Positions 20,479-37,868 of a stretch of DNA of 64,000 nucleotides are shown piece by piece. The notes under the pieces were generated by a model. It did no database searches. It was given only the letters and a program-made list of their open reading frames with translations, and was not told where the DNA came from. Position 1 is the stretch's first letter. Each line of letters begins with the position of its first letter. The stretch comes from Bacillota bacterium (GTDB lineage Bacteria; Bacillota; Desulfotomaculia; Desulfotomaculales; Desulfohalotomaculaceae): NCBI GenBank assembly GCA_009711615.1, contig VENI01000006.1:62001-126000 (forward strand). Direction: 5' to 3'. Both the position numbers and the translations under genes were made by a program.

Positions 20479-20690
20479 TTACAACAAAGTCTTAAAGAGA
20501 TAGAATGCACTGCCCCACATAATAATAGCAGATATTCTGTTAAAAACTACAAGCGTTTTGTTTCCCAGGTTTCTAATAACCCTTCCTAATAATACGAGAA
20601 AGAAAAACCAAGCAAAAGAAACAAGAATAGTTGCAGATGTAAACACAATCTTATCAATCCCGCTGTGCTGTAATGAACTAATACCAATAA
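20479..20690 (-). pseudogene. 3' fragment of a lysE-like gene (left direct repeat)
   Basis: 20494-20690 matches 37287-37483 at about 193 of 197 bases. On the - strand it encodes the last about 66 residues of the LysE-like exporter present in full at 37868-37269, in the same frame, but ending LFKTLL-stop instead of the intact terminus. The homology stops abruptly at 20690; no start or N-terminal half is present. Together with the copy at the right edge it brackets the whole CRISPR-Cas island. Confidence 0.85.
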
Positions 20691-20858
20691 GGGATATGAA
20701 TTCTTATTTAATTCTAAATAGGAAGGAATTTATAACCTATATGGAAAAATGTTATTAATATGGCTACTACTAAAAGGTTCTTGGGAAAAGAAACGCTGTT
20801 TAATATAACGGCAGGTAGGTTAAACATCCCCTAAGGTTGTAACGAGGTGGGTGATATT
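20691..20858. other. Left junction of the CRISPR island
   Basis: AT-rich unique sequence between the lysE fragment and the membrane-anchored protein. Only a GAGGTGGG ribosome binding site at the right end is recognised. Confidence 0.3.
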
Positions 20859-21690: not shown

Positions 21691-24175
21691 GTTACCATCT
21701 TACCTATAAGGAATTGAAACCTTGTTCAAGAAGATCGTCTATGATATTCATAATATCGTTACCATCTTACCTATAAGGAATTGAAACCTGATGTACCGCG
21801 CTTAATTAAGTAGGTATATCCGTGTTACCATCTTACCTATAAGGAATTGAAACACACCTATAAAAGCTATTTCTTTTTCTTCATCATTGTTACCATCTTA
21901 CCTATAAGGAATTGAAACATGACTAACTCTTTTGCATGGTTTTTTGGTTGTCTTGGTTACCATCTTACCTATAAGGAATTGAAACTGCAGAAGTATTTGA
22001 ATTATCTTTTGAGTCTATTCGTTACCATCTTACCTATAAGGAATTGAAACTTAAATGTCTGCCCATATGAAATATTTTCAGATCAAGTTACCATCTTACC
22101 TATAAGGAATTGAAACTGCTATTAAAGAATTAAAGAAAATCAAAGAGGAGTTACCAGTTACCATCTTACCTATAAGGAATTGAAACAATGCAGAAGTCGC
22201 AGCAAACAATGTACAAACTTACGTTACCATCTTACCTATAAGGAATTGAAACTGATAAAACTTTATTGCTGTGGTTGTAGCAGGAAAAGTTACCATCTTA
22301 CCTATAAGGAATTGAAACTTGGTTATCTCTGTCCAATCTTTTGACAAGTCAGTTGTTACCATCTTACCTATAAGGAATTGAAACCTTACCCTACTAACGA
22401 AAACAAGATTGAGGGTTTTATGTTACCATCTTACCTATAAGGAATTGAAACAACTGTCCTCTAACGGTTGACGGAGTTGACCATGTTACGTTACCATCTT
22501 ACCTATAAGGAATTGAAACACCTGTATAGTCTTGCTGTCACCCTGCTCGTCGAATGTTACCATCTTACCTATAAGGAATTGAAACCTGTTTAGTTGGTTC
22601 GGTGCTATTGACATGTATTTTGGTTACCATCTTACCTATAAGGAATTGAAACGTGCTTTTTCCGCTCATCCCCTTTCCCTCCTTCCAGTTACCATCTTAC
22701 CTATAAGGAATTGAAACTCATAATAACTACTTTCAAACTTTAAATTTTTAGCAGTTACCATCTTACCTATAAGGAATTGAAACTCATAACTACCAGTTAA
22801 CGAGCCAGTTGTCAAACTAGTTACCATCTTACCTATAAGGAATTGAAACATTAAAATAGTGGCCAAAATTGAAAATATCTGCAAAGGGTTACCATCTTAC
22901 CTATAAGGAATTGAAACCCGTAATTAAATCCGTTCTGCCCTGCTCAGTTAAGGTTACCATCTTACCTATAAGGAATTGAAACAGGCTATGGTAAATTCGT
23001 CAACTTCATTTAACCCACCGTTACCATCTTACCTATAAGGAATTGAAACCAGCAATAGCAGCCACAGCACCAAGAGTAGCAACAACGGTTACCATCTTAC
23101 CTATAAGGAATTGAAACTCGGTCTCTGCAACCTCATCCTGGGCAATGGTTATAGTTACCATCTTACCTATAAGGAATTGAAACCAAGGCTGTTTGTCGGG
23201 TGGACCGCTGGCCCATTTAAGTTACCATCTTACCTATAAGGAATTGAAACTTCTAAGTGTGTCAGCGTCATTCTCTTGTACCGGTGGTTACCATCTTACC
23301 TATAAGGAATTGAAACTGCGTTAGCTTCACTTGCTCCTTCTCAGTGCTTTTTGTTACCATCTTACCTATAAGGAATTGAAACTAATATTTTGGTCTATGT
23401 CTACAAACTTATTATCTCTGTTACCATCTTACCTATAAGGAATTGAAACTTAGTTACATCTTCAACATTCGAGCATTGATTACAGTTACCATCTTACCTA
23501 TAAGGAATTGAAACAAGAACGATGGCCGGAAAGTAAACGGTACAAAATTGTTACCATCTTACCTATAAGGAATTGTAACATTCTTTTTGATGTTGGTTTA
23601 ATTCTTGCTACTATAGTTACCATCTTACCTATAAGGAATTGAAACTAGTGTTTGCGGATATAAACATATACCCAGCTAGTCAGTTACCATCTTACCTATA
23701 AGGAATTGAAACCATAATATAAAGATAAGGAGCTGGTACGAATGCAAGTTACCATCTTACCTATAAGGAATTGAAACTTGAAAATGTACAAAATATCCCT
23801 GCATTGGTAAATAGTTACCTTCTTACCTATAAGGAATTGAAACTTCGGTATCTTAATAAGGTCGGACGCGCTAAAGTTGGTTACCATCTTACCTATAAGG
23901 AATTGAAACTAGTTTTTATATTTTTTAGGCAGCAGCCAACGGGCCGGTTACCATCTTACCTATAAGGAATTGAAACAAAAACAAGATGTAATTACTATAA
24001 GTCAAAAAGTTAGTTACCATCTTACCTATAAGGAATTGAAACAAGATAGCACACACCATGCAATCTATCGTGTGCGGCCAGTTACCATCTTACCTATAAG
24101 GAATTGAAACAAACTATACCGGTTTTTAAATATGAAGACACTGAAGTTACCATCTTACCTATAAGGAATTGAAGT
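21691..24175 (+). CRISPR. CRISPR array 1: 38 repeats, 37 spacers
   Basis: 30-nt repeats beginning GTTACCATCTTACC and ending AAGGAATTGAAAC, spacers mostly 35-38 nt (one of 40 at 22117-22156). Repeat starts were counted one by one from 21691 to 24146. The leader is on the left. The last repeat is degenerate at its 3' end (GAAGT instead of GAAAC), which marks the old end of the array. Single-base variants occur at 23550 (GTAAC end) and 23814 (CCTTC). The last eight bases, ATTGAAAC, give the crRNA 5' handle usual for type I-B. One spacer here has a diverged relative in array 2 at 34652, another at 36303. Confidence 0.98.
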
Positions 24176-24264
24176 TTGTGACCTTGAGAAACTGTAGTCA
24201 AAGCAGTTACTAGGGAAGATTGTATATTGAGATAAAAAAACTCGCTGTAATAGTATAGTCTTGA

Positions 24265-24292
24265 TTGTTATGTGTAACTATATTATTATAAT
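24265..24292 (+). promoter_or_regulatory. Promoter of the mini-CRISPR RNA
   Basis: TTGTTA (24265-24270), 16 bp, TATAAT (24287-24292). A start near 24299 would fall inside the first degenerate repeat, so that only its conserved 3' part is transcribed in full. Confidence 0.5.
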
Positions 24293-24293
24293 G

Positions 24294-24414
24294 GTTACCG
24301 TAACCTGCTAAAGGGATTGAAACGATTAAAAATGAAAGATGTTGTTTATCTTACCTAAAAGGGATATAAAATATAAGTCAACTTACCCAGAATATGGTTG
24401 ACTTATTTTTTATA
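24294..24414 (+). ncRNA. CreR-like mini-CRISPR RNA (two degenerate repeats, 18-nt guide)
   Basis: Degenerate repeat 1 (24294-24323) matches the array repeat at 19 of 30 bases but keeps the whole 5' handle ATTGAAAC. Degenerate repeat 2 (24342-24371) matches at 20 of 30 and keeps the middle block ATCTTACCTA. The 18-nt pseudo-spacer GATTAAAAATGAAAGATG (24324-24341) matches 15 of 18 bases at 24434-24451, at the start of cas transcription. A terminator (TAAGTCAAC ... GTTGACTTA, then ATTTTTTAT) follows at about 24374-24413. Cas-regulating RNAs (CreR) and the related CreA antitoxin RNA of type I-B systems have this structure: Cascade carrying such a short guide binds a promoter without cutting. That it works here is inference. 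Confidence 0.75.
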
Positions 24415-24451
24415 GGGTGATACTATCTCTTTAGATTATAAGTGAAAGATA
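24398..24451 (+). promoter_or_regulatory. cas operon promoter with overlapping mini-crRNA target
   Basis: TTGACT (24398-24403), 17 bp, TACTAT (24421-24426) with extended TGA before it; the -35 lies in the 3' arm of the preceding terminator. The target GATTATAAGTGAAAGATA (24434-24451) starts at about +1, with TTA just 5' of it in the PAM position. The AGGAG ribosome binding site begins at 24451. Confidence 0.7.
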
Positions 24452-24454
24452 GGA

Positions 24455-25234
24455 GTGATTGTAATACCAGTTATACATATTTCCATGAAATTAAATAAAC
24501 CGTTGACGCTACCTGTCCAATATAATCATCTACTTCAATCCTTCATATATAGTATTTTCCCACAAGAAGAAGCTACTTTTCTACATGATATTGGATTTAA
24601 ACATCAAAAACGAGTTTATAAGCTGTTTAGCTTTTCCCAACTTCAGGGACGCTCAAATTATGATAAAAAAAATAAAACTATCACATTTGCTGACGAAGTA
24701 GTACTAACTGTTAGCTCTATTTTACAAAACTTAATTGAGAAAACGGCAAATAATGTGTTATTATCAAAAAATTTACAAATTAATGGCCAGAAGGTAAATA
24801 TTCAGGGAATAGAATTTAGAGATTTTACTATCCCAGAGGATGGGGTTATTCACATTAGAGCAGTTTCTCCCATTACGGTATACTCTACCTATAAAAGGCG
24901 AGATGGAAGAAAGGCAACACATTATTTTAAACCAGAGGATAGGGGGGTTTTTGAGCACTTAATAGAAGAAAACTTTGTGCGGAAGTATGAAACATTTACT
25001 GGGGAGAAACTGCCTCAGCAATCCCTTGTTGGTTTAAAACCTGTACGTGTAACCGAACGAGATAAGGTGGTTACAAGGTATAAGGGAACGTGGATTACCG
25101 GTTGGCTTGGTGAATATGAGCTTTCCGGGAGGCCAGAACATTTGCATTTTTTGCTCAGTGTAGCGCTTGGAATGAAGAACTCTATCGGCATGGGGTTATG
25201 TCTACCGAAGGATATCTTACCTAAGAGGGATTAA
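24455..25234 (+). CDS. cas6: CRISPR pre-crRNA endonuclease Cas6
   Basis: 259 residues, RAMP superfamily. Cas6 cuts pre-crRNA in each repeat, leaving the 8-nt handle. The glycine-rich loop near the C-terminus (LGMKNSIGMGLCLP, about 240-253) and the N-terminal KLNKPLTLPVQYNHLLQSFIY segment are typical. First gene of the cas operon, directly after array 1 and the mini-CRISPR RNA. The start is uncertain: the GTG at 24455 overlaps the AGGAG site, while the next in-frame ATG (24485) has no site and would shorten the first beta strand. Confidence 0.92.
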   Translation: MIVIPVIHISMKLNKPLTLPVQYNHLLQSFIYSIFPQEEATFLHDIGFKHQKRVYKLFSFSQLQGRSNYDKKNKTITFADEVVLTVSSILQNLIEKTANNVLLSKNLQINGQKVNIQGIEFRDFTIPEDGVIHIRAVSPITVYSTYKRRDGRKATHYFKPEDRGVFEHLIEENFVRKYETFTGEKLPQQSLVGLKPVRVTERDKVVTRYKGTWITGWLGEYELSGRPEHLHFLLSVALGMKNSIGMGLCLPKDILPKRD

Positions 25235-25253
25235 TTATAAAGGGGGTGAAAAG

Positions 25254-27254
25254 ATGCTTCTAAAACAAATTGTACAAATTGGAAAATCTATTGTATCCAG
25301 CACTATGTCTATGGAAGAGAGAATTCAATTGCTCACAGATGTTAATAATGAACAAACAAAAAATTTCTATAACAATGTCTTCATGGTAGAAGTAGACGCA
25401 AAAAAGGGTGTAGATTTACAATTTTTTAGTTTGCAAAGCGGTGATGGTAAAGTTGATTTAGCAAAAGCAACTGCCATTCCCATTACATTGCCAGCAGGTG
25501 GTAACCCGTTACATGCCCAAGGTGTTTACCCTATTCCGTGTTACCCCTTATACGAACGCCACATTAATGAATTTGCTGATGCACAGAAAACAGAAAAAAT
25601 GATATATGATCGATTGTTGAAAACTATACCTTTTTTTCATTTGCCCAAAGATCAATTGAAAGAAAAAGCAGCTACCATAGCTAGGATACTAAACACAGAA
25701 GGAACTGCTTACGTTACAGAGGAGAAACAACTAGGGGTTCTAGTGATAATAGATCATTCACTTGAGTTATATTGTGATGCACCGAATGACGATTGCTTGG
25801 CAATACGTCAAAGTCCGTTCACTCACCAACCTATATATATTCAAGCGAACAAGGTGATTGCCAATATTGCTGAAGCCCGTTTTCAGGAAGCTAAGGAATT
25901 GGGAGAAGAAGCAAATGCTGTATCTACAATATCTAATCAGCAGTCATCGGAAGTGGTTTCTGCCTATAATAAAGGGTGGTTGTTTTTGTCGCCCACTTGG
26001 GAGGCACCAAAATCAATTTATTGGGGAAAAACTGATTGGACAAAGGGCATTAAATTAAATCGTGAGGAATATGAAGCCTATTTTTACGGCACTCAATTTT
26101 TGAAAATGGTGCAAACCCCAATTCGGGCAGGCTTATTGAAAGAAATGTTTGCTCCCATATCCAGTGCAGAAGCAAAACAGCATATGAACGCCACAAGTTT
26201 TGAACCCATCTACGCCATTCCCTTTATATTGCCCATAATAAATGATTATCGAGAAGAAACTTATCGTCATTTCCAGGTATTGTCCCAAAAATATGAAGAT
26301 GAAAATATTTCTCCCACGGATTTACAGCTAAAAATTATCGGTGGGTTGGAGAAAAGAATTATATCTAACCCCAAGGACGAATACCGCTTGACAATTTTAT
26401 ATTATTCAGGGGAACTGGGTCGAGGCAATATTCATGTTCGGGCAATGATAGAAGACGTTGTTCCAAGTGTGGCTATGAATGTGCAAAAAATCATTCGAAA
26501 ACTAAATGGGCGAGAGTTGGCTTTAATTGCAGATGCTTTGTCTGCTTCCAATACAAACTACCTTTCATTTAAGCTTAATCATTTACCTTCATTATTATCT
26601 AATGCTTACGGCCCGGGATATTTATGGACAAGTTTGCAAGCTGTTTTACATCGTGAACAAATACAACTGGACCGTGTTATTAAACAAACGGCAAGAAGGT
26701 TGAATGAACTGGCCAATAAAGAAGATCACTGGAACCTAGTAAATGAATTGCTATTTTATCATGGGTTTCGCTATTTTTATAGTGGTTATTTCCAAAAAAT
26801 TCTTCAACAAAAGGAGGGATGTTTAACCATGACAGAGTGGAAAGGGTTATTAGACCGTTATATAGACGAACAGTTAACCGAAGCAGATCTTGACACCACC
26901 GAAAAAATTGGTTTTTTATCAGGTTGTCTTTTAAAACAGTTTGAAAGGTCTTACTATGCTATAACCAATAAAAAATTTGTTAAAACTAGGGTTATGCGCT
27001 TTGGCAGTAAACTGACTCCCGAAATGATCTGGAAAAATGGTTTATTAAAACTAATGGAATTAGAGCAACAGCGAGAGATGGGGATAAAAGGCAATTTTTA
27101 TAAAGCATTGCCACTTGTTCTAACGTCAGTTAATGATTTAGAGCAAAAACAGTTATTGAAAAAGGAAAAAGATCAATTTATGACTATGTTTTGGTCGGGC
27201 TATTTAATGATGCCCAGTTTGAAAAAAGGAGATGAAAAAAATGACCATCAATAA
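25254..27254 (+). CDS. cas8b: Cascade large subunit Cas8b (TM1802/Csh1-like)
   Basis: 666 residues. By position (between cas6 and cas7), size and overall character this is the type I-B large subunit, which recognises the PAM and helps load Cas3. The sequence is diverged as usual for Cas8; I recognise the TM1802/Csh1 style of N-terminus (LLKQIVQIGKSIV, then FYNNVFMVEVD) rather than a sharp motif. AAGGGGGTG precedes the ATG. The 3' end overlaps cas7. No Cas10 (GGDD) features, which excludes type III. Confidence 0.85.
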   Translation: MLLKQIVQIGKSIVSSTMSMEERIQLLTDVNNEQTKNFYNNVFMVEVDAKKGVDLQFFSLQSGDGKVDLAKATAIPITLPAGGNPLHAQGVYPIPCYPLYERHINEFADAQKTEKMIYDRLLKTIPFFHLPKDQLKEKAATIARILNTEGTAYVTEEKQLGVLVIIDHSLELYCDAPNDDCLAIRQSPFTHQPIYIQANKVIANIAEARFQEAKELGEEANAVSTISNQQSSEVVSAYNKGWLFLSPTWEAPKSIYWGKTDWTKGIKLNREEYEAYFYGTQFLKMVQTPIRAGLLKEMFAPISSAEAKQHMNATSFEPIYAIPFILPIINDYREETYRHFQVLSQKYEDENISPTDLQLKIIGGLEKRIISNPKDEYRLTILYYSGELGRGNIHVRAMIEDVVPSVAMNVQKIIRKLNGRELALIADALSASNTNYLSFKLNHLPSLLSNAYGPGYLWTSLQAVLHREQIQLDRVIKQTARRLNELANKEDHWNLVNELLFYHGFRYFYSGYFQKILQQKEGCLTMTEWKGLLDRYIDEQLTEADLDTTEKIGFLSGCLLKQFERSYYAITNKKFVKTRVMRFGSKLTPEMIWKNGLLKLMELEQQREMGIKGNFYKALPLVLTSVNDLEQKQLLKKEKDQFMTMFWSGYLMMPSLKKGDEKNDHQ

Positions 27255-28200
27255 TGGTGAATTACTATTTATAAAATCAGTGAAAGATGGAATCCCTAAT
27301 CGCGATCCACTGAACGATAGTGATGCTCGCCGGTTATTTCCCGAAGAGGATGGACGGATATCACTTTCAGATGTCAGCATAAAACGTGATGCGCGGGATT
27401 TTGTAATTTCTTTATATCCCGAAGGGGGAGAAGAACAACGTAATTATGTGTTTGTACAGGCTGTTGAAAATGATAAAGGGAAGTTGTTGGGAAGAAAATC
27501 TTTGGCAGAAGCAATTGCCGAAAAAGTAGGTAAAAAGTCAGAAGCTAAAAACAATATGAAAGATGTATTGTTAGACCATGCCTTTGATGTACGCACATTC
27601 GGTATTGTCTATTCTGAAAAGCCCAAGTTTAATCTCACAGGGCCAGTACAGTTTTCCTGGGCACATTCCATGCATCCTGTAGATACACAATATATACAAG
27701 GAACAGTGACCATGCCCAGTAAAGATGCCACAGAGAGTGGAGAAGGAAACACCCAAGGAACCATTTGGACATCCTACACATTGCCATTTGCGGTTTTTGC
27801 TATGCCAGGCATTATTAATGCTTCCAGTGCCAAGCATACCAGAATGACAGAAGAGGACCAAGAATTGCTATTAAAAAGCTTGTGGCAAGGGACTAGAAAC
27901 CGTCATGCCCGGGGTAGAGGGCAGCAAGAACCGTTATTTTTAATGCATGTAGAATACAACGATCCGTTTTTTAGAATAGGGTTTTTGGATGAAATGGTAA
28001 AATTGTTACCAGAAGCTGAAGCATGGCGTCAAAGTGATCAAACTCCATCTAAACTAAGTGATATTACGATGGATGTTACTGAACTGGCCAATACATTAAA
28101 TAAATATAAAGATAAAATTAAACACTGCCGTATTTGGAAGCATTCGCTATTAGCTACTAGAGGGGAAATAAATCAATACTTGGAAGAGAACTCCTGGTAA
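27241..28200 (+). CDS. cas7: Cascade backbone subunit Cas7 (Csh2-like)
   Basis: About 319 residues, RAMP fold. Multiple Cas7 copies form the helical backbone that holds the crRNA guide. The N-terminal LLFIKSVKDGIPNRDPLNDSD segment and DVSIKRDARDFV are typical of the Csh2 branch of type I-B. An ATG at 27232 is in frame, but AAAGGAG directly precedes it; the ATG at 27241 has proper spacing. Overlaps the cas8b end by 14 bases. Confidence 0.92.
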   Translation: MTINNGELLFIKSVKDGIPNRDPLNDSDARRLFPEEDGRISLSDVSIKRDARDFVISLYPEGGEEQRNYVFVQAVENDKGKLLGRKSLAEAIAEKVGKKSEAKNNMKDVLLDHAFDVRTFGIVYSEKPKFNLTGPVQFSWAHSMHPVDTQYIQGTVTMPSKDATESGEGNTQGTIWTSYTLPFAVFAMPGIINASSAKHTRMTEEDQELLLKSLWQGTRNRHARGRGQQEPLFLMHVEYNDPFFRIGFLDEMVKLLPEAEAWRQSDQTPSKLSDITMDVTELANTLNKYKDKIKHCRIWKHSLLATRGEINQYLEENSW

Positions 28201-28216
28201 AAGGAGGCTAACAATA

Positions 28217-28903
28217 ATGAAAGTTGTCGCGTTTGATGTTAAAAGTTCCATTGCACACTTTCGCAGGCCTGATACGACAGCGACACAATTAACTTACCCG
28301 TTTATGCCTCCCACTGCTGCTAAAGGATTAGTAGGGGCAATTTTAGGAATAGAAGATTTTGTCACCCGAGATCAGGTTGGCATTCAACTCCTTTCTCCAG
28401 TTAAAGTGGTAAGTCAACAGTTATCTTTATTGGGTAAGGGTGGGGGTAATGTGTTTAATCGACCAACTACCATTCAATTACTCATTCGACCGGCTTATCG
28501 CATTTATTATGGGGGAGAAGAATATGTGGACAAACTGGAAGAGTATTTAAAATCTGGTTGTGCTGTTTATCCCACGTACTTAGGGTCTTGTTTCGCCTTA
28601 ACAAAACCGAAATATGTCAATACATGGCATGCCACTGATATATCTTTGCAAAACAACTTAACAACCCGCACAGTGATTCCGGCATCAGTTATAAAGGAAC
28701 TTGAATTGCAACCAAACCACCATTTTCAACGTGCATACGGATTTTTTAAAAACTATTTAGGAGATCGTACATTTGAACAGTCTATTGACTATATTTATGA
28801 AGAAAATTCAAACCCAACATCATTTTTACCTAAACCAGAAGTGAAAGAACTAAATATAGCAATTTTAGAAACTAAAGCGGGTGAAACTATATGTCTGGTT
28901 TAA
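28217..28903 (+). CDS. cas5b: Cascade subunit Cas5 (type I-B)
   Basis: 228 residues. Cas5 caps the crRNA 5' handle in Cascade. The N-terminus (VVAFDVKSSIAHFRRPDTTATQLTY, with the following PFMPPTAAKGLVGAILG) is characteristic of the Cas5h/Cas5b family. AAGGAGG lies 9 bases before the ATG. The gene overlaps cas3 by 13 bases. Confidence 0.92.
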   Translation: MKVVAFDVKSSIAHFRRPDTTATQLTYPFMPPTAAKGLVGAILGIEDFVTRDQVGIQLLSPVKVVSQQLSLLGKGGGNVFNRPTTIQLLIRPAYRIYYGGEEYVDKLEEYLKSGCAVYPTYLGSCFALTKPKYVNTWHATDISLQNNLTTRTVIPASVIKELELQPNHHFQRAYGFFKNYLGDRTFEQSIDYIYEENSNPTSFLPKPEVKELNIAILETKAGETICLV

Positions 28904-31272
28904 AACCTTTTGATCAATGTATTGCGAGACCATCCACAAAAGAGCAAGATTTTTTACTGACGGATCATCTTATGGGAGTGCGTAATTTGGCGCACTCCTT
29001 TTTTCAAAATTCAAGCGGTACAGTTAAGATGCTAATTGAGTTGGTAGCTATATCACATGACATTGGGAAAGCTCATATTAAATGGCAAAAGTATATTTCA
29101 GGAAAAGCAAAGGAGAGGGTTAATCATTCCTCTGTTGGTGCAATATTTTTTTCCTATCTTGCTTATCATTATTTAGTTATTAAGGAAAGCTGGGACAATT
29201 ACCAATGGCTGTGGCTATCGTTAACTCGGGACATTGCTGACCATCATGGTATATTAAAAAATCTCAACTTAAATGAAAATGGTTTAGAATATGCCGATTT
29301 AGAGAAAATGGACATAGACGGTATTGAGAGGTTTATAAAAACTACTTTTCCCTTTTTCAAACAACAAAGCATATCTGTTAATATTGATGTTTTAAATGAT
29401 TGGCAAGAAGACGGTCTCGATGAACTGGTTGATAAAGTTATAGAGCGGATTATAGAAACAAATATGAATGATAAGAAATCATCCACAGAAATGATGAAGG
29501 TTTTACAGGAATTGCGTGCTTTTACAACAATATTAATTGCTTCAGACCGTTTTGATATCAAATTGATAAAAGACCATCGTTTTTCTGATGGTTCCCAACA
29601 ATTACATAACAATATTAAAAGTTTTTGTGAAGAAGGGAAAAGTCACCCATTGGCTTCGGTTCGAAACGCCGCACAAACTAGTATTTTAGATCAATGGCAG
29701 CAGCAAAAGGTATCCCGGTTTTTTACTTTGCAGATGCCTACTGGTTATGGAAAAACTTTAACTGCTCTCAAATTAGCCGTTGAAATGTATCAGCAGCAAT
29801 CATTGACAAAAATTGTTTATGTGGCCCCTTACTTATCTATCTTAGAACAAAACGCAAAGGCGATAGAAGATGCACTAAAAATAATCCCTTTGGAACATCA
29901 TTCAATGGCTATATTAAATCAGGATGTAATTGATGAAAAAGATGACGATCTTTCATCTTTAATTACACAATCTTGGTCAAATCCAGTTGTATGTACAAGT
30001 TTTGTTCAGTTTATGAAGGCCATCTTTCCAAAAAGAGCACAAGAAACACTGCGACGAGTTTACCTGTCTAATAGTGTTATTTTAATTGATGAGCCGCAAA
30101 TTATGGATGCAGAAATATGGAATTTGTTTTTAACAGGTTTACAAGCAATCACTGAACAATATAATTGCCGAGTAATTTTTATTTCTGCAACTATGCCTTC
30201 CTTTGAACACGGTTTAACTGAGAAGCCCCAAAATTTACATATCCAATCTAATATGGACAATAATCGCTATGTGCTACGGCAAGTGAAAGAAATGAATGAG
30301 AAGAATTGTGCTGAGATGTTGGCAGATCAATCTGTTCCCAGCAGTGCTGTAATAGTAAATACCATAAAAGATGCAATAAAAGTATATAATGAAATACATT
30401 TATCAAGTGATTCAGAAAAATATTTAATTCACGGACTAATGATCCCTATTCATAAAAAAGCAAAGTTAAATGAAATTAATTTTGCTTTAAATAAACTGAA
30501 GAATAAACCCAGTTCTCAAAATATTAAAGTAGTATCAACGCAGATTATTGAAGCAGGGGCAGATCTAAGTTTCCACTACATGTATCGTGCTAGGGCAGTA
30601 TTACCTTCTATGTTGCAGGCTGCTGGAAGAATAAACCGTCACAAAGAGTTAACATTAGGGATTATCGAAACAGGACCCTTTATAAGGGAAGAAACAGAAA
30701 TAGAAAGTAGAAAATATATTTATGATAGTAACTTATGCCGGATTACCGATGAACTATTAATGAAAAAAGCTGAATGGAAAGAATGTCAGTTGGAGCAGCT
30801 AGTAAAGCAGTATTATCAAATAATGTTTCAAGAGAATTCATATGAAGCTGTTTTACAAGATATTGCATCTGCCTATGTTGGGCATTGGCAGGTACTATCT
30901 AAACATGAAGTATTTAAAAGTGAAGTTGCTCGGTTACCCATTTTTATACCTTGGGATTGGAATTATTACAGCGATTATATTCCCCAACCGTTTTTGAAAT
31001 TGCTGCATGAGTTTAACGTTAATCATCCCAACCAATTATATAACCTGTTTACAAATTCAAATCGAAAAAAATGGTCTTATCAAAAACAAAAGCTATTCTC
31101 AACTTTATTTAATCAATTCGTATTAAGAGTTCCGGCGAAACAAGCGTTAAAAATGGTGAGTAAAGAAGACTTTTTGCAATATAAAATTCCCATGCTGATG
31201 GACGATCATGTTTATGACATGCAAGATGGCTTAATCTTAGGTGCCAATGATATAGGTGACTCTATCATTTAG
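28891..31272 (+). CDS. cas3: CRISPR nuclease-helicase Cas3
   Basis: 793 residues, HD nuclease fused to a superfamily 2 helicase. HD residues: H26, H56-D57 in ISHDIGKAH and the later DHHGI. Helicase motifs: Walker A MPTGYGKT near residue 283, motif II as LIDEPQ (DEPQ rather than DEAH), motif III FISATMPS, then STQIIEAGADLSF and QAAGRINRH. Cas3 is recruited by target-bound Cascade and degrades the displaced strand. All expected motifs are intact, so interference should be possible if expressed. Confidence 0.95.
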   Translation: MSGLKPFDQCIARPSTKEQDFLLTDHLMGVRNLAHSFFQNSSGTVKMLIELVAISHDIGKAHIKWQKYISGKAKERVNHSSVGAIFFSYLAYHYLVIKESWDNYQWLWLSLTRDIADHHGILKNLNLNENGLEYADLEKMDIDGIERFIKTTFPFFKQQSISVNIDVLNDWQEDGLDELVDKVIERIIETNMNDKKSSTEMMKVLQELRAFTTILIASDRFDIKLIKDHRFSDGSQQLHNNIKSFCEEGKSHPLASVRNAAQTSILDQWQQQKVSRFFTLQMPTGYGKTLTALKLAVEMYQQQSLTKIVYVAPYLSILEQNAKAIEDALKIIPLEHHSMAILNQDVIDEKDDDLSSLITQSWSNPVVCTSFVQFMKAIFPKRAQETLRRVYLSNSVILIDEPQIMDAEIWNLFLTGLQAITEQYNCRVIFISATMPSFEHGLTEKPQNLHIQSNMDNNRYVLRQVKEMNEKNCAEMLADQSVPSSAVIVNTIKDAIKVYNEIHLSSDSEKYLIHGLMIPIHKKAKLNEINFALNKLKNKPSSQNIKVVSTQIIEAGADLSFHYMYRARAVLPSMLQAAGRINRHKELTLGIIETGPFIREETEIESRKYIYDSNLCRITDELLMKKAEWKECQLEQLVKQYYQIMFQENSYEAVLQDIASAYVGHWQVLSKHEVFKSEVARLPIFIPWDWNYYSDYIPQPFLKLLHEFNVNHPNQLYNLFTNSNRKKWSYQKQKLFSTLFNQFVLRVPAKQALKMVSKEDFLQYKIPMLMDDHVYDMQDGLILGANDIGDSII

Positions 31273-31290
31273 TAATTGGGAGGGAATAAA

Positions 31291-31803
31291 GTGGATCATT
31301 ATCGACTACCTGTGACAGGAACGGATATATGGTATTACTTTATATGCAGACGAGAACTGTGGCTAATGGCACATAAAATTGCACCGAATCAAGAAGATGA
31401 AAATGTGGAGATTGGACGCTTTCTACAAGATTACTATGGAACGAGAGGTAAAGAAGAAGTAGATATAGGATCTGGAAAGATTGATCGTATTAAAAAAGTT
31501 AAGGGTCAGCTTATTGTACAAGAGATTAAAAAAAGTTCTAAGTATAGGGAAAGTAGTAGATTTCAATTATTGTTTTATCTTTATGAATTAGAAAAAATGG
31601 GGGTACAAGCAGTTGGCGAATTAACTTTTTCTGAAGAACGGAGAAAGGAAAAAGTTGAACTAACAGAGAAGGACAGGCAGCACTTAATTGAAGCAATAGA
31701 AGATATTAGTGAAATTGTCAAGGAATCAGTCCCTTCAGCTCCAAAGAAAACCAAATTTTGTCGACAATGTGCATACAGAGAATATTGTTGGGCAGGTGAA
31801 TAG
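31291..31803 (+). CDS. cas4: CRISPR exonuclease Cas4
   Basis: About 171 residues. RecB-like nuclease with an iron-sulfur cluster: one cysteine near residue 19 (FICRREL) and three near the C-terminus (FCRQCAYREYCW). The nuclease core shows IVQEIKKSSKY, the D/E-x-K type motif. Cas4 trims prespacers and enforces the PAM together with Cas1-Cas2. The GTG at 31291 follows GGGAGGG; an upstream TTG at 31276 lies before that site and is not used. Confidence 0.92.
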   Translation: MDHYRLPVTGTDIWYYFICRRELWLMAHKIAPNQEDENVEIGRFLQDYYGTRGKEEVDIGSGKIDRIKKVKGQLIVQEIKKSSKYRESSRFQLLFYLYELEKMGVQAVGELTFSEERRKEKVELTEKDRQHLIEAIEDISEIVKESVPSAPKKTKFCRQCAYREYCWAGE

Positions 31804-31805
31804 AA

Positions 31806-32816
31806 TTGAAAAAATCAATTTATATATTTCAAAATGGACAACTAAGAAGGAAAGACAATACCTTGTTTTTTCTTAATGAAGAAGGGAAACGCAATTTTAT
31901 TCCGGTAGAAGATATAAATGATATCTTCATATTTTCTGAAACGCAGCTAAATACTAAACTGCTAGACTTTCTAAGTCAAAAACATATTTGTGTGCATTTT
32001 TTTAATTACTACGGATATTATTCAGGTACATATTATCCACGGGAGCATCTAAACTCAGGACAAGTTATTTTAAAGCAGGCTGAACATTATATTAACTTAG
32101 AAAAAAGGCTAGATCTTGCTAAGCGTTTTATTAAAGGATCAATTCAACAAATGAAAAAAGTTGTTTATTATTATCTTAAACGCCGGGAAGATAAATTAGT
32201 TTTAACAAAGTCGGTGGTTAAAGATTTAGATGCCATTTTAGAAGATTTCTCTAATGCAAAATCCATAGAAGAATTAATGTCCTTTGAAGGTCATGCCAGA
32301 GAAAAATACTACAGTTGTTTTGATGAAATCCTTAATAATGAAAACTTCAAATTTGAAAAAAGATCTAAACGCCCACCTCTTAATCAGTTAAATGCACTAA
32401 TTAGCTTTGGTAATGCCATATGTTACACAATTGTTTTAAGCGAATTATATAAAACCTATTTGGACCCACGAATCGGTTTTTTACATACAACTAACTTTAG
32501 GAGATTTTCCTTAAATCTTGATTTAGCAGAAATATTTAAACCAATTATGGTTGATAGACTTATCTTTATGATGATTAACAAAAAAATAATTACTAAAAAA
32601 GATTTTGAACATGAACATGGCGGAGGCATTCTGCTTAATAAATCGGGTAAACGTAAGTTTATTGAACAACTAGAAAAAAGAATGCGTACTACTGTAAAAC
32701 ATAGGCGCCTGGAAAAAAATGTATCCTATCGGCGTTTAATACGTCTAGAAGCATATAAAATACAAAAGCATGTTCTCGGTGAAAGAGAGTATGAACCATA
32801 TCAGGCTTTATGGTAA
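31806..32816 (+). CDS. cas1: CRISPR integrase Cas1
   Basis: 336 residues. Metal-binding active-site residues are visible: E161 in SFEGHARE, H227 in FLHTTNFR and E242 in LAEIFKP. This is the type I-B branch. With Cas2 it inserts new spacers at the leader end. The TTG start lies 2 bases after the cas4 stop, behind AGGTG. The gene appears intact, so both arrays should be able to grow. Confidence 0.95.
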   Translation: MKKSIYIFQNGQLRRKDNTLFFLNEEGKRNFIPVEDINDIFIFSETQLNTKLLDFLSQKHICVHFFNYYGYYSGTYYPREHLNSGQVILKQAEHYINLEKRLDLAKRFIKGSIQQMKKVVYYYLKRREDKLVLTKSVVKDLDAILEDFSNAKSIEELMSFEGHAREKYYSCFDEILNNENFKFEKRSKRPPLNQLNALISFGNAICYTIVLSELYKTYLDPRIGFLHTTNFRRFSLNLDLAEIFKPIMVDRLIFMMINKKIITKKDFEHEHGGGILLNKSGKRKFIEQLEKRMRTTVKHRRLEKNVSYRRLIRLEAYKIQKHVLGEREYEPYQALW

Positions 32817-32831
32817 TTGGGGGGTGTTTTT

Positions 32832-33095
32832 ATGTTTTTAATATTAGTGTATGATTTCGGCGAAAAACGGGTGGCTAAGGCATTAAAAATATCTAGAAAA
32901 TATTTAAACTGGGTACAAAATTCAGTGTTTGAAGGAGAAATTTCTAAAGCAAATTATGTTAAACTGAAAAAGGAACTAGAATGCTTAATGGATTCTGAAG
33001 AAGACTCAGTTATTTTTTATACGTTTAGAAGTAAAAAGTATTCAAAGCGTGAAATTTTAGGCGTAGAAAAAGGAAATATAGATAATATAATTTAA
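32832..33095 (+). CDS. cas2: CRISPR adaptation protein Cas2
   Basis: About 87 residues, ferredoxin-like fold. The conserved aspartate is in LVYDFGEKRV after the first strand, and the basic segment RKYLNWVQNSVFEGEIS is typical. It is the structural partner of Cas1. The ATG at 32832 follows GGGGGGTG; a TTG at 32817 lies before the site. The leader stem-loop of array 2 begins 6 bases after its stop. Confidence 0.93.
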   Translation: MFLILVYDFGEKRVAKALKISRKYLNWVQNSVFEGEISKANYVKLKKELECLMDSEEDSVIFYTFRSKKYSKREILGVEKGNIDNII

Positions 33096-33286: not shown

Positions 33287-36200
33287 GTTACCATCTTACC
33301 TATAAGGAATTGAAACTCACATCCAATATTGTGTAAAGCACCAGCAAACCAGTGTTACCATCTTACCTATAAGGAATTGAAACTTATTCCAGTTTCCTTC
33401 AACCAACGCCCAATGTAATATGTTACCATCTTACCTATAAGGAATTGAAACACTTTTTTCTTTTCCACCACTAAACGGCATCCTCCGTTACCATCTTACC
33501 TATAAGGAATTGAAACAGCAACAAGAAAAAGAAGCATGGAAAGGCACGAGTTGGTTACCATCTTACCTATAAGGAATTGAAACAGGTAATCGGGGTTGCC
33601 TGCGAAAAATAGCCTTGTGGTTACCATCTTACCTATAAGGAATTGAAACTTAGCAAGTATATTACCTTTCATATTATCATCCTTTAGTTACCATCTTACC
33701 TATAAGGAATTGAAACTAATTATTCTTCCACTTCTTCAATTTTCGCCCCACAGTTACCATCTTACCTATAAGGAATTGAAACTATGAAGGGATTAAGCAT
33801 ATAACCCCTCCCTGTTAAGTTACCATCTTACCTATAAGGAATTGAAACACCGGTCTGCTGGTGAGGTATCATTCAGTACAGCACGTTACCATCTTACCTA
33901 TAAGGAATTGAAACGCGGTAAACATACATTTCCAACCAACACTGGAACGCGTTACCATCTTACCTATAAGGAATTGAAACCGCTTCATTTGCGCCTGTCT
34001 GCGCTCTATCTCGGCCTGTTACCATCTTACCTATAAGGAATTGAAACAGTTTCAACTCTACTCCTGGCTTAATGCCGAATCCAGTTACCATCTTACCTAT
34101 AAGGAATTGAAACCGGTATTCGTTTAACTGCCGTTGGAACTCAACTGTGTTACCATCTTACCTATAAGGAATTGAAACCCTTGATAGCGATATTGATATA
34201 TTTAGCATTGGAGTTGTTACCATCTTACCTATAAGGAATTGAAACGTGTTTATGGCACATGCAAAAGCAGTAAAAGTAGACAGGTTACCATCTTACCTAT
34301 AAGGAATTGAAACTATGAAGCTCTTTGCTTTTAGTGAAGTGAATTTATCGTTACCATCTTACCTATAAGGAATTGAAACCATGAAAAGTTATAATACATA
34401 TAATAAATAATTGGGTTACCATCTTACCTATAAGGAATTGAAACTAGCGATGTTGAGAGGTTACGGAAGGAGGTAGCGCGTGAACTGGTTACCATCTTAC
34501 CTATAAGGAATTGAAACGTCTGTGACGTAACATAAGCATCCCTGCCGCCGAAGTTACCATCTTACCTATAAGGAATTGAAACACCGCTGTGCTTCTTCTG
34601 CTATCTCAAACGTCAGCGCGTGTTACCATCTTACCTATAAGGAATTGAAACAACTGTCCTCTGACTGTTGATGGTGTACTCCACGTCACGTTACCATCTT
34701 ACCTATAAGGAATTGAAACCCGAAACTCCTGAAAAAGGCTATCCTGTGTGCACTGTTACCATCTTACCTATAAGGAATTGAAACCACATAAACTCTGCAG
34801 TGTTCTTGCTCCAGGGATTTCGTTACCATCTTACCTATAAGGAATTGAAACTACTATAGTATATGCTTGCTTGCAAGCAGAATATAGTTACCATCTTACC
34901 TATAAGGAATTGAAACCGCTTCATTTGCGCCATTCTGCGCTCTATCTCGTCAGTTACCATCTTACCTATAAGGAATTGAAACTGAAATAACTAGAAAAAC
35001 GCTGAAACTCCACGAATGTTACCATCTTACCTATAAGGAATTGAAACCTACTAGTGCCATCTCTAAACATTTTTTTAGTCTCGGTTACCATCTTACCTAT
35101 AAGGAATTGAAACACAAAATTTGTTAAATATTAAACTGTAATACCTTCGTTACCATCTTACCTATAAGGAATTGAAACAATGTTATTTGGGCGCTCAACC
35201 TCTCTCTTATTACTGGTTACCATCTTACCTATAAGGAATTGAAACAAAGCTACTGAGGATATAAAAAAATGTACTAAGCTAGTTACCATCTTACCTATAA
35301 GGAATTGAAACTTGGATTGCAAAAAGATTTGATAATAACGCAGCATTGGTTACCATCTTACCTATAAGGAATTGAAACGGAGAAACACCTGTACATATTC
35401 CTGTGCCATCTGAGTTACCATCTTACCTATAAGGAATTGAAACATCAATCCCATCAACCAAACCAAATGGCACGAACTGTTACCATCTTACCTATAAGGA
35501 ATTGAAACATAAATGACCAGAAAACAACTAACAGAAGTATTACAAGTTACCATCTTACCTATAAGGAATTGAAACATGTTAATCTGGTCAGGTGTTACCG
35601 ATATATTGACAGTTACCATCTTACCTATAAGGAATTGAAACAAATTAAAAATCAGACATAATACCACCAACATATACTGTTACCATCTTACCTATAAGGA
35701 ATTGAAACGTAACCAGGAACCATGGGGGCGATGCTAAAAAGTAGTGGAAGGTTACCATCTTACCTATAAGGAATTGAAACCCGGTATCGGACATAAAATG
35801 TATCTGTAGCAAATGTTACCATCTTACCTATAAGGAATTGAAACTCGGGATTGCCGCCACGTTTTGAGTTATCCCAATAGTTACCATCTTACCTATAAGG
35901 AATTGAAACACGGTTATACTTACTTGATTAAGCGCGGTACTGCGGGTTACCATCTTACCTATAAGGAATTGAAACGCGTTAGATGCCTTTTTCATCGGTC
36001 TAATATAATCGTTACCATCTTACCTATAAGGAATTGAAACTTATAAACTCCTGCCGCTTGTCCGATGCGTGTAGTTGTTACCATCTTACCTATAAGGAAT
36101 TGAAACCTTGTTAAATTAGGATTTTCATCTTCACAAAGAATGGTTACCATCTTACCTATAAGGAATTGAAACTGTTCTCTGGCTAGTTCAACTTTGTATT

Positions 36201-37234
36201 TTCCCAGTTACCATCTTACCTATAAGGAATTGAAACCTGGTAAAGGCGTTAAAATTGCGGTTTTTGAATGTGGTTACCATCTTACCTATAAGGAATTGAA
36301 ACATACAAACAGTAGCCAATATTGAAAAATATTGCAAAGGTTACCATCTTACCTATAAGGAATTGAAACATACAAACAGTAGCCAATATTGAAAAATATT
36401 GCAAAGGTTACCATCTTACCTATAAGGAATTGAAACTTTGCTTCACACTAACCACCACAGCAGGGTAATTGGTTACCATCTTACCTATAAGGAATTGAAA
36501 CGAGACAAAGCCTGGAACGAGCAAGTTGACGGCATAGTTACCATCTTACCTATAAGGAATTGAAACAGAACTAACTCAAAGGTAAAAGCCTACGGAACTA
36601 CACAAGTTACCATCTTACCTATAAGGAATTGAAACAGGCGGCCTGTGTGCCGTTAAAATTGCACTCACCACGTTACCATCTTACCTATAAGGAATTGAAA
36701 CTTATCTTCAAGTTTTTGCATTACTGGTGGCTTAAGGTTACCATCTTACCTATAAGGAATCGAAACCAAAAAGCTAGAAATTAACCGCGAGGGTGGCAGT
36801 TAGTTACCATCTTACCTATAAGGAATTGAAACTCTAATATAATAAGTGTAGCTTTGCAACCGTCTTCAGTTACCATCTTACCTATAAGGAATTGAAACAC
36901 CGTAGCAAAGAAATCCCACACTGGCTGCAACGCAGTTACCATCTTACATATAAGGAATTGAAACAAAATTGAAAAGGAGAATCCGGTAATAAATCAATAA
37001 CAGTTACCATCTTACCTATAAGGAATTGAAACCCATGAGGATAGGCTGATACTGGTTGTTTGGTATGGCAAAGGTTACCATCTTACCTATAAGGAATTGA
37101 AACTCATTTGTTGGTAGTTGTAAACCTGCCCTGTTAAAGTTACCATCTTACCTATAAGGAATTGAAACGTGGTTAATTATGAAAATGTTGATCCGCAGTA
37201 TTCTGTTACCATCTTACCTATAAGGAATTGAAAC
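33287..37234 (+). CRISPR. CRISPR array 2: 60 repeats, 59 spacers
   Basis: Same 30-nt repeat and orientation as array 1. Repeat starts counted from 33287 to 37205. Spacers are mostly 34-38 nt; longer ones occur at 34445-34487 (43 nt), 35709-35750 (42 nt) and 37033-37073 (41 nt). Repeat variants: 36737 (AATCG) and 36935 (TTACATA). One spacer is present twice in a row (36303-36339 and 36370-36406). Two others (33981-34017, 34917-34952) are near-identical. The final repeat is intact. Confidence 0.98.
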
Positions 37235-37268: not shown

Positions 37269-37868
37269 CTACTTTAAAAAGTTTAGAAAGAGATAGAATG
37301 CACTGCCCCACATAATAATAGCAGATATTCTGTTAAAAACTACAAGCGTTTTGTTTCCCAGGTTTCTAATAACCCTTCCTAATAATACGAGAAAGAAAAA
37401 CCAAGCAAAAGAAACAAGAATAGTTGCAGATGTAAACACAATCTTGTCAATTCCGCTATACTGTAATGAACTAATACCAATAACTCCTATGATATCCATG
37501 ACGGCATGGGGGTTAAATATAGATACAGATGAAGCAAATAGAATTTGCTTTTTAATAGTAAACACATTATTAAAGTGGTTCGTTTCTGCGCTGGTACTTT
37601 TCCAGGTTAAAATCCCCATATAAATTAAAAAAATAATTCCTACCACTAGTACCAAGTATGTAACTGCACTAAACTTAAAAATAACAACAGACACACCTGA
37701 TACTGCAAGTAGAATTAATAAAGTGTCACATATACCAGCGGCAATAACAACGGGCAAAGCATTTAAAAATTTTGGTTGAACAGCACCTTGATTAAATATT
37801 AAAGTATTCTGAGGGCCAAGGGGTAGAATTAATCCCAAAGCAAGTATAAAGCCGTGTAAAAAAGCCAT
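37269..37868 (-). CDS. LysE-type amino acid exporter
   Basis: About 199 residues with six hydrophobic spans and the family start FILALGLILPLGPQNTLIFNQG. LysE/ArgO proteins export basic or other amino acids; the substrate is not known here. The frame extends to a TTG at 37886, but that codon is part of the GGAGG site, so the ATG at 37868 is used. Divergent from a MocR-type regulator that probably controls it. The 3' part (37287-37483) is duplicated at 20494-20690 on the other side of the CRISPR island. Confidence 0.88.
   Translation of the reverse strand: MAFLHGFILALGLILPLGPQNTLIFNQGAVQPKFLNALPVVIAAGICDTLLILLAVSGVSVVIFKFSAVTYLVLVVGIIFLIYMGILTWKSTSAETNHFNNVFTIKKQILFASSVSIFNPHAVMDIIGVIGISSLQYSGIDKIVFTSATILVSFAWFFFLVLLGRVIRNLGNKTLVVFNRISAIIMWGSAFYLFLNFLK
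37287..37483. repeat. Right 197-bp direct repeat bounding the CRISPR island
   Basis: Same orientation and about 98% identity with 20494-20690; four differences were found, clustered at the distal end (37444-37461). Lies within the intact lysE-like gene. Confidence 0.9.

Follow-up and report, generated by a model that had tools for sequence, protein, structure and literature searches.

A mini-CRISPR RNA that probably directs Cascade to its own cas promoter in a type I-B locus of a Desulfotomaculum relative

A mini-CRISPR unit lies upstream of the cas operon in the window, the 64 kb stretch of DNA analysed here. Judged from sequence, its RNA is likely to guide the type I-B Cascade of the same locus onto the cas promoter and to repress it, i.e. 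to act as a CreR; we place the probability of this reading at about 85%. CreRs are autorepressors described in types I-B, I-E and V-A (PMC13131331; PMC12737573). As the class is already published, the unit would be a well-supported further member and not a new mechanism. It adds a compact CreR, conserved in a sister species, in a relative of Desulfotomaculum. The added value lies in the survey and in the covariation, since the eleven units found allow the CreR rule for type I-B (TTA, mismatches at 6, 12 and 18, and covariation) to be tested from sequence alone. If the unit is functional, cas expression would report directly on anti-CRISPR attack or on an overload of crRNA.

The type I-B CRISPR-cas locus is arranged in the order array 1, cas6-8-7-5-3-4-1-2, array 2, and the mini-CRISPR unit (24294-24371) is placed between array 1 and cas6. 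The features are as follows.

21691..24175, + strand: CRISPR array 1, 38 repeats, directly 5′ of the mini-CRISPR unit
24265..24292, + strand: predicted mini-CRISPR promoter, TTGTTA-16-TATAAT, 10/12 match to consensus
24294..24323, + strand: psiR1, degenerate repeat, 19/30 to the array repeat, 5′ handle ATTGAAAC 8/8
24316..24363, + strand: predicted mature RNA, 48 nt (8-nt handle, 18-nt guide and 22-nt 3′ handle), from the handle sizes given for CreA (PMC8501985)
24324..24341, + strand: pseudo-spacer (guide) of 18 nt, GATTAAAAATGAAAGATG, 15/18 to 24434-24451
24342..24371, + strand: psiR2, degenerate repeat, 20/30 to the array repeat, central ATCTTACCTA intact
24374..24413, + strand: predicted terminator, stem 24374-24405 and T run, -10.5 kcal/mol, z -3.63
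24398..24426, + strand: predicted cas promoter, TTGACT-17-TACTAT with extended -10, 9/12 match with TG
24431..24433, + strand: TTA at the PAM position, preceding the target; TTA also in all other units counted
24434..24451, + strand: guide target GATTATAAGTGAAAGATA, at the predicted +1 and spanning about +1 to +18, ending 3 nt 5′ of the cas6 start codon
24455..33095, + strand: cas operon with the putatively targeted promoter, NCBIfam matches except for the cas8-like gene
24455-25234, + strand: cas6 (NCBIfam)
25254-27254, + strand: cas8-like, without NCBIfam match, named from its position and its relatives, some of which match Cas_TM1802
27232-28200, + strand: cas7 (NCBIfam)
28217-28903, + strand: cas5 (NCBIfam)
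28891-31272, + strand: cas3 (NCBIfam)
31276-31803, + strand: cas4 (NCBIfam)
31806-32816, + strand: cas1 (NCBIfam)
32817-33095, + strand: cas2 (NCBIfam)
33287..37234, + strand: CRISPR array 2, 60 repeats

Comparison with the array repeat reproduced, base for base, the coordinates and the scores (19/30 and 20/30) that the first-pass annotation had given for two degenerate repeats, and these are the sole sites with at least 16/30 in 24180-24470. Such scores are unlike the near-identical repeats of an ordinary array, and the pseudo-spacer measures 18 nt as against 34-43 nt for the array spacers. It had also been claimed that repeat 1 keeps the whole 5′ handle and repeat 2 the middle block; the handle agrees at 8/8 positions and ATCTTACCTA is intact. 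The predicted mature RNA has an unremarkable fold (z -0.15), and the sole Rfam match, below threshold, was to the last repeat of the array.

The guide agrees with its target at 15/18 positions, with mismatches at 6, 9 and 18 and with TTA directly 5′ of the target, and the match starts exactly at the end of the 5′ handle. Anatomy, strand, PAM side and mismatch positions were all as the first-pass annotation had described them. Positions 6, 12 and 18 do not pair in type I guides. Dinucleotide shuffling of the 100-nt target region gave a match of at least 15/18 in 3 of 20,000 cases. Of the remaining + strand windows of 100 nt in the 64 kb, 2,546 in number, none reached it (best 14); seven overlapping - strand windows (two - strand sites) did. 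The pattern GATTAWAARTGAAAGATR, a degenerate form of the motif, occurs in the unit's own genome (92% complete) only at guide and target. The guide reads in the sense of the cas6 mRNA, which leaves the template strand of the DNA as the only possible partner of the RNA; a role as antisense to the cas6 mRNA was ruled out by strand.

The transcription signals proposed earlier were recovered. A promoter-like match is present at exactly 24265-24292, where the promoter of the unit had been placed, and the TTGACT-17-TACTAT promoter at whose predicted +1 the target was said to start was found at 24398-24426. The terminator assigned to the unit corresponds to a terminator-like stem at 24374-24405 with a T run (z -3.63); its right arm contains the -35 box of the predicted cas promoter. 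A separate terminator scan reported no terminator here because its loop limit is 8 and the loop is 12. Around the unit there are 7 promoter-like sites versus 1.7 in shuffles.

Conservation was seen in a sister species of the same genus (G001), in which cas6 is 79% identical and ORFs match the operon in order and size. psiR1 agrees at 25/30 positions, psiR2 at 26/30 and the terminator at 32/40, and TTA is kept, while only 26 of the 65 nt 5′ of the unit agree. The first-pass annotation had held that independent drift of pseudo-spacer and promoter in relatives would speak against it. In G001 pseudo-spacer positions 1-17, read by eye, are identical (the alignment gives 16/17 owing to gap placement) and target positions 1-17 agree at 16/17; guide and target change together in G067 and G094 (see below). 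This check thus favours the CreR reading. The G001 guide mismatches its own target only at 6 and 18, and comparison of the two species places mismatch 9 of the window in the target, not in the guide. The spacing from handle to psiR2 core differs by 2 nt between the two, beyond the end of the match. Promoter-like matches occur in the same two places in G001, that for the cas promoter being of the same kind; the other scores 9/12 and stops 1 nt short of psiR1, in bases that align at only 13/29. In G001 the unit has no array beside it, and the draft assembly of that genome yielded no repeat of this type; drafts easily lose arrays.

A survey of relatives was carried out. Of 113 genomes of the order, 59 yielded cas6, in 67 places, and 17 yielded relatives of the cas8-like protein encoded in the window; 23 of 398 genomes sampled from the phylum yielded such relatives as well. 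A Cas6 scan of genome contigs gave no relative and a Cas7 scan gave two loci, L042 being left unused. In 88 stretches, units were searched for as a handle (at least 6/8) and the core TACCTATRAGG (at least 9/11) at a spacing of 14-26 nt; a target had to lie within 800 nt and to match at positions 1-5 and at a minimum of 12 of the 15 pairing positions. Nine loci lying inside larger ones (L003, L005, L008, L017, L020, L027, L030, L031 and L032) were excluded from the survey and the mismatch statistics, as were L043-L059 and L128-L146, most of them represented by larger stretches (none for L129 of G187).

Among the 80 repeat-spacer-repeat candidates in the 88 stretches, ten, the window and G001 included, have a local target under this rule. 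TTA is present in 10/10, where random stretches would give 1.5 targets, 0.05 of them with TTA. Mismatches in the ten fall at 6 (nine units), 12 (five), 18 (ten), 17 (four), 16 (two) and 9 (one, the window); none falls at 1-5, 7, 8, 10, 11 or 13-15. When the rule was relaxed to at least 13/18, without position or PAM rule, 25 of the 80 candidates had a local site, and at the other 15 of these the PAMs varied and the mismatches were scattered. Control 18-mers gave 13, 14 and 40 local sites, with TTA in 2, 0 and 0. An eleventh unit, in G041, has TTA and mismatches at 6, 9, 12 and 18; it comes from a larger stretch only and stands outside the statistics on the ten. By guide sequence and orthology the eleven form eight groups: the window with G001, G055, G067 with G094, G112, G020 with G021, G059, G113 and G041. 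In G055, psiR1 keeps the handle of its own genome, TTTGAAAC. Most of the type I-B loci surveyed have no such unit at the thresholds used, which counts against the CreR reading.

Two other kinds of candidate were set aside. Scans for the handle alone gave 17 matches versus 8-16 with shuffled handles, and 30 versus 8-22 with shuffled repeats, an excess too small for these to be used as numbers. A lone repeat in G006 (L063 8370-8399), far from the array and 188 nt upstream of the cas6 match, agrees with that genome's array repeat at 28/30; its spacer had no convincing match in the locus or the genome, and it was not counted.

At least three arrangements of the units can be distinguished. In the window and G001 the unit is in tandem with the operon and has its own predicted promoter and terminator; in G055, G067, G094 and G041 it is on the strand opposite the cas genes with the target between; and in G020, G021 and G059 it separates the target from the downstream cas gene. 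The target is immediately 5′ of cas6 in G055 and immediately 5′ of a divergent Cas_TM1802 (cas8) gene in G067 and G094, and it precedes a unit leading into cas8 in G020 and G021 and into cas6 in G059. Less clear cases are G112, where the target overlaps the start of a DUF3800 gene preceding cas6, G041, where it precedes a gene with a sub-threshold Cas match, and G113, where it is about 275 nt 5′ of cas6.

Changes in guide and target could be followed in two pairs of genomes. The G067 and G094 units are orthologous, having an AbiEii-like neighbour (75% identical) in the same order. Their guides are GATTGTTTTTATTGC and AATTGCTTCTGCTGT and their targets GATTGTTTTTATTGC and AATTGTTTCTGTTGT: guide and target co-vary at 1, 9, 11 and 15, and positions 6 and 12 differ in the guide alone. 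In G020 and G021, guide positions 1-17 are common to both and the targets differ only at 6, 12 and 18. Such a pattern is what pairing inside Cascade demands, and a protein operator would not give it.

The neighbour in G067 and G094 is an AbiEii-type nucleotidyltransferase gene that follows the unit on the same strand, with cas8 divergent (L165 2389-3500 in G067; L068 11171-12496 in G094). A link of this toxin-like gene to Cascade control is possible.

The unit lies only about 120 nt past the last repeat of array 1 and in the same orientation, as would a decayed tail of that array with worn repeats, a shortened, functionless spacer and an accidental match to the promoter. Such an origin is very unlikely, given that G001 keeps the unit without an adjoining array, that decay has struck different parts of psiR1 and of psiR2 and left in each what Cas6 needs, that the spacer is 18 nt and not 34-43 nt, and that units of this sort, with TTA and the 6/12/18 pattern, recur in other genomes. 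The likeness of two 18-bp sites, each near a promoter, could also mean that both are copies of an operator, through which a protein regulator would control both the cas operon and the mini-CRISPR. An operator predicts neither a match beginning exactly at the handle, nor mismatches gathered at 6, 12 and 18, nor covariation of guide and target as in G067 and G094, and unrelated guides in other genomes follow the same rule; this explanation is highly improbable.

An addiction module of the CreTA type, in which the guide would repress a toxin RNA instead of the cas genes, would have an RNA of like anatomy. Haloarchaeal creTA is likewise found beside or within cas operons (PMC8501985), and the AbiEii-like gene after the unit in G067 and G094 would suit a module of this kind. 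The promoter targeted in the window is directly followed by cas6 and not by a toxin RNA, with nothing but the terminator and the promoter between unit and target. We regard an addiction module here as scarcely probable.

On the CreR reading, the mini-CRISPR would be transcribed from 24265-24292, Cas6 would cut the transcript to the 48-nt RNA, and this RNA would load into Cascade and pair through its guide with the template strand at 1-5, 7, 8 and 10-17. As the pairing would be too short to call in Cas3 cutting, Cascade at +1 would merely block RNA polymerase. By analogy with published CreR work, array crRNAs would compete for Cascade, so that plentiful crRNA, or an anti-CRISPR disabling Cascade, would relieve the repression and let Cas levels rise. 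According to PMC10551041, TTA is the most effective PAM in an I-B system of P. thermoglucosidasius (Parageobacillus); in that system, with Cas3 present, guides no longer than 26 nt bring about repression but no cutting.

In CreA of H. hubeiense, positions 1-5 and 7-11 are required, 6 and 12 are dispensable, and every tested single seed change abolished repression (PMC8501985). Pairing of this seed to the cas promoter region is 10/10 in G001 and 9/10 in the window, where the mismatch at 9 lies within the seed; the window copy is thus not a perfect guide. This counts against the CreR reading. The natural unit of G041 is also mismatched at 9, and pairing in the window extends to 17. The CreR assignment made in the first-pass annotation was right in kind, with the correction that mismatch 9 falls in the seed essential for haloarchaeal CreA.

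A repeat-like sequence is also present at the 3′ end of cas6. ATCTTACCTAAGAGGGATTAATTA (25214-25237) spans the cas6 stop codon, and agrees with the repeat at 17/24 and with psiR2 at 19/24. Outside the arrays and psiR2, no 24-nt stretch of the 64 kb resembles the repeat better; over the full 30 nt it reaches only 17/30 and does not stand out. It encodes part of a C-terminal tail short of which most aligned relatives end. In G001 it lies within an identical run of 28 nt, the longest in cas6; elsewhere in the operon 11 identical runs are longer. A score of 17/24 at the cas6 tail is found in 2 of 36 cas6 loci (the two sisters), the others having at most 15 in that place, and one other cas6 reaches 17/24 to the repeat in its body. 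Self-control could conceivably have two tiers, with CreR limiting the whole operon and Cas6 limiting itself alone by cutting its own mRNA, although we consider this unlikely. Cas6 would then cut its message within the final codon, which would take away the cas6 stop codon and leave cas8 with its ribosome site intact. Among the papers listed in literature searches, no title or abstract opening told of Cas6 acting on its own or cas mRNA.

The spacers of both arrays were compared with 50,697 phage records, in which the only match was repeat-like, in one phage, with no protospacer; three recurrent spacers had no match in viral contigs. As no protospacer was found, the PAM is not readable from the arrays' own targets; this, too, counts against the CreR reading. 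In array 2 one spacer occurs twice in succession (36303 and 36370), and variant pairs of spacers occur across or within arrays (22452/34652 and 33981/34917), as if the same viral genes had been sampled repeatedly. The CRISPR-cas locus is flanked by a 206-nt direct repeat, 96% identical, at 20494-20699 and 37287-37492 (16.8 kb apart), perhaps a trace of movement of the locus.

Mini-CRISPRs with the same repeat core are carried by viruses, at about 601-690 of L120 (Parageobacillus phage JGon-2020a, CP063417.1) and at 7227-7309 of L122 (an IMG/VR contig), the latter directly after an ORF resembling endolysin. Both have an intact psiR1 handle, a guide of about 22-23 nt, an altered psiR2 handle and then a terminator-like stem. 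Their guides gave only chance-level matches to the fetched cas loci; they could be RNA anti-CRISPRs, or guides turning host Cascade on host genes. A loose pattern of the window's guide, sought in viral contigs, was found in five contigs sharing one stretch without a second repeat and was taken as chance.

A natural short guide that turns an effector on its own promoter is also known from type II-A, as tracr-L, the long form of tracrRNA, with Cas9; that system consists of Cas9 and tracrRNA, and its RNA is unrelated to the window unit. The phage RNA anti-CRISPRs (Racr) are likewise solitary repeats outside arrays, processed by enzymes of the Cas6 family (PMC10651486). Racrs are viral-encoded, whereas the window unit belongs to a chromosomal cas locus, and its guide has its target at the cas promoter. 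CreA of Haloarcula hispanica and Halorubrum hubeiense resembles the unit in its two degenerate repeats, which yield 8-nt and 22-nt handles, and in its short pseudo-spacer; its PAM, its seed of 1-5 and 7-11 and its free positions 6 and 12 (PMC8501985) would have counterparts in the window, the seed at 9 of 10 positions. It differs in having a toxin RNA as target and TTC as PAM, as against the cas promoter and TTA in the window, where the match also extends to 17 with a mismatch at 9. The closest likeness is to CreR, described as a crRNA-like RNA beside the cas operon that is partly complementary to the cas promoter, without a toxin gene (PMC12737573; PMC13131331). The window has the unit at the cas operon, the target 3 nt before cas6 and no toxin gene under the targeted promoter. 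Judged from these class descriptions, the unit differs from CreR in nothing of kind, and the host group appears to be new.
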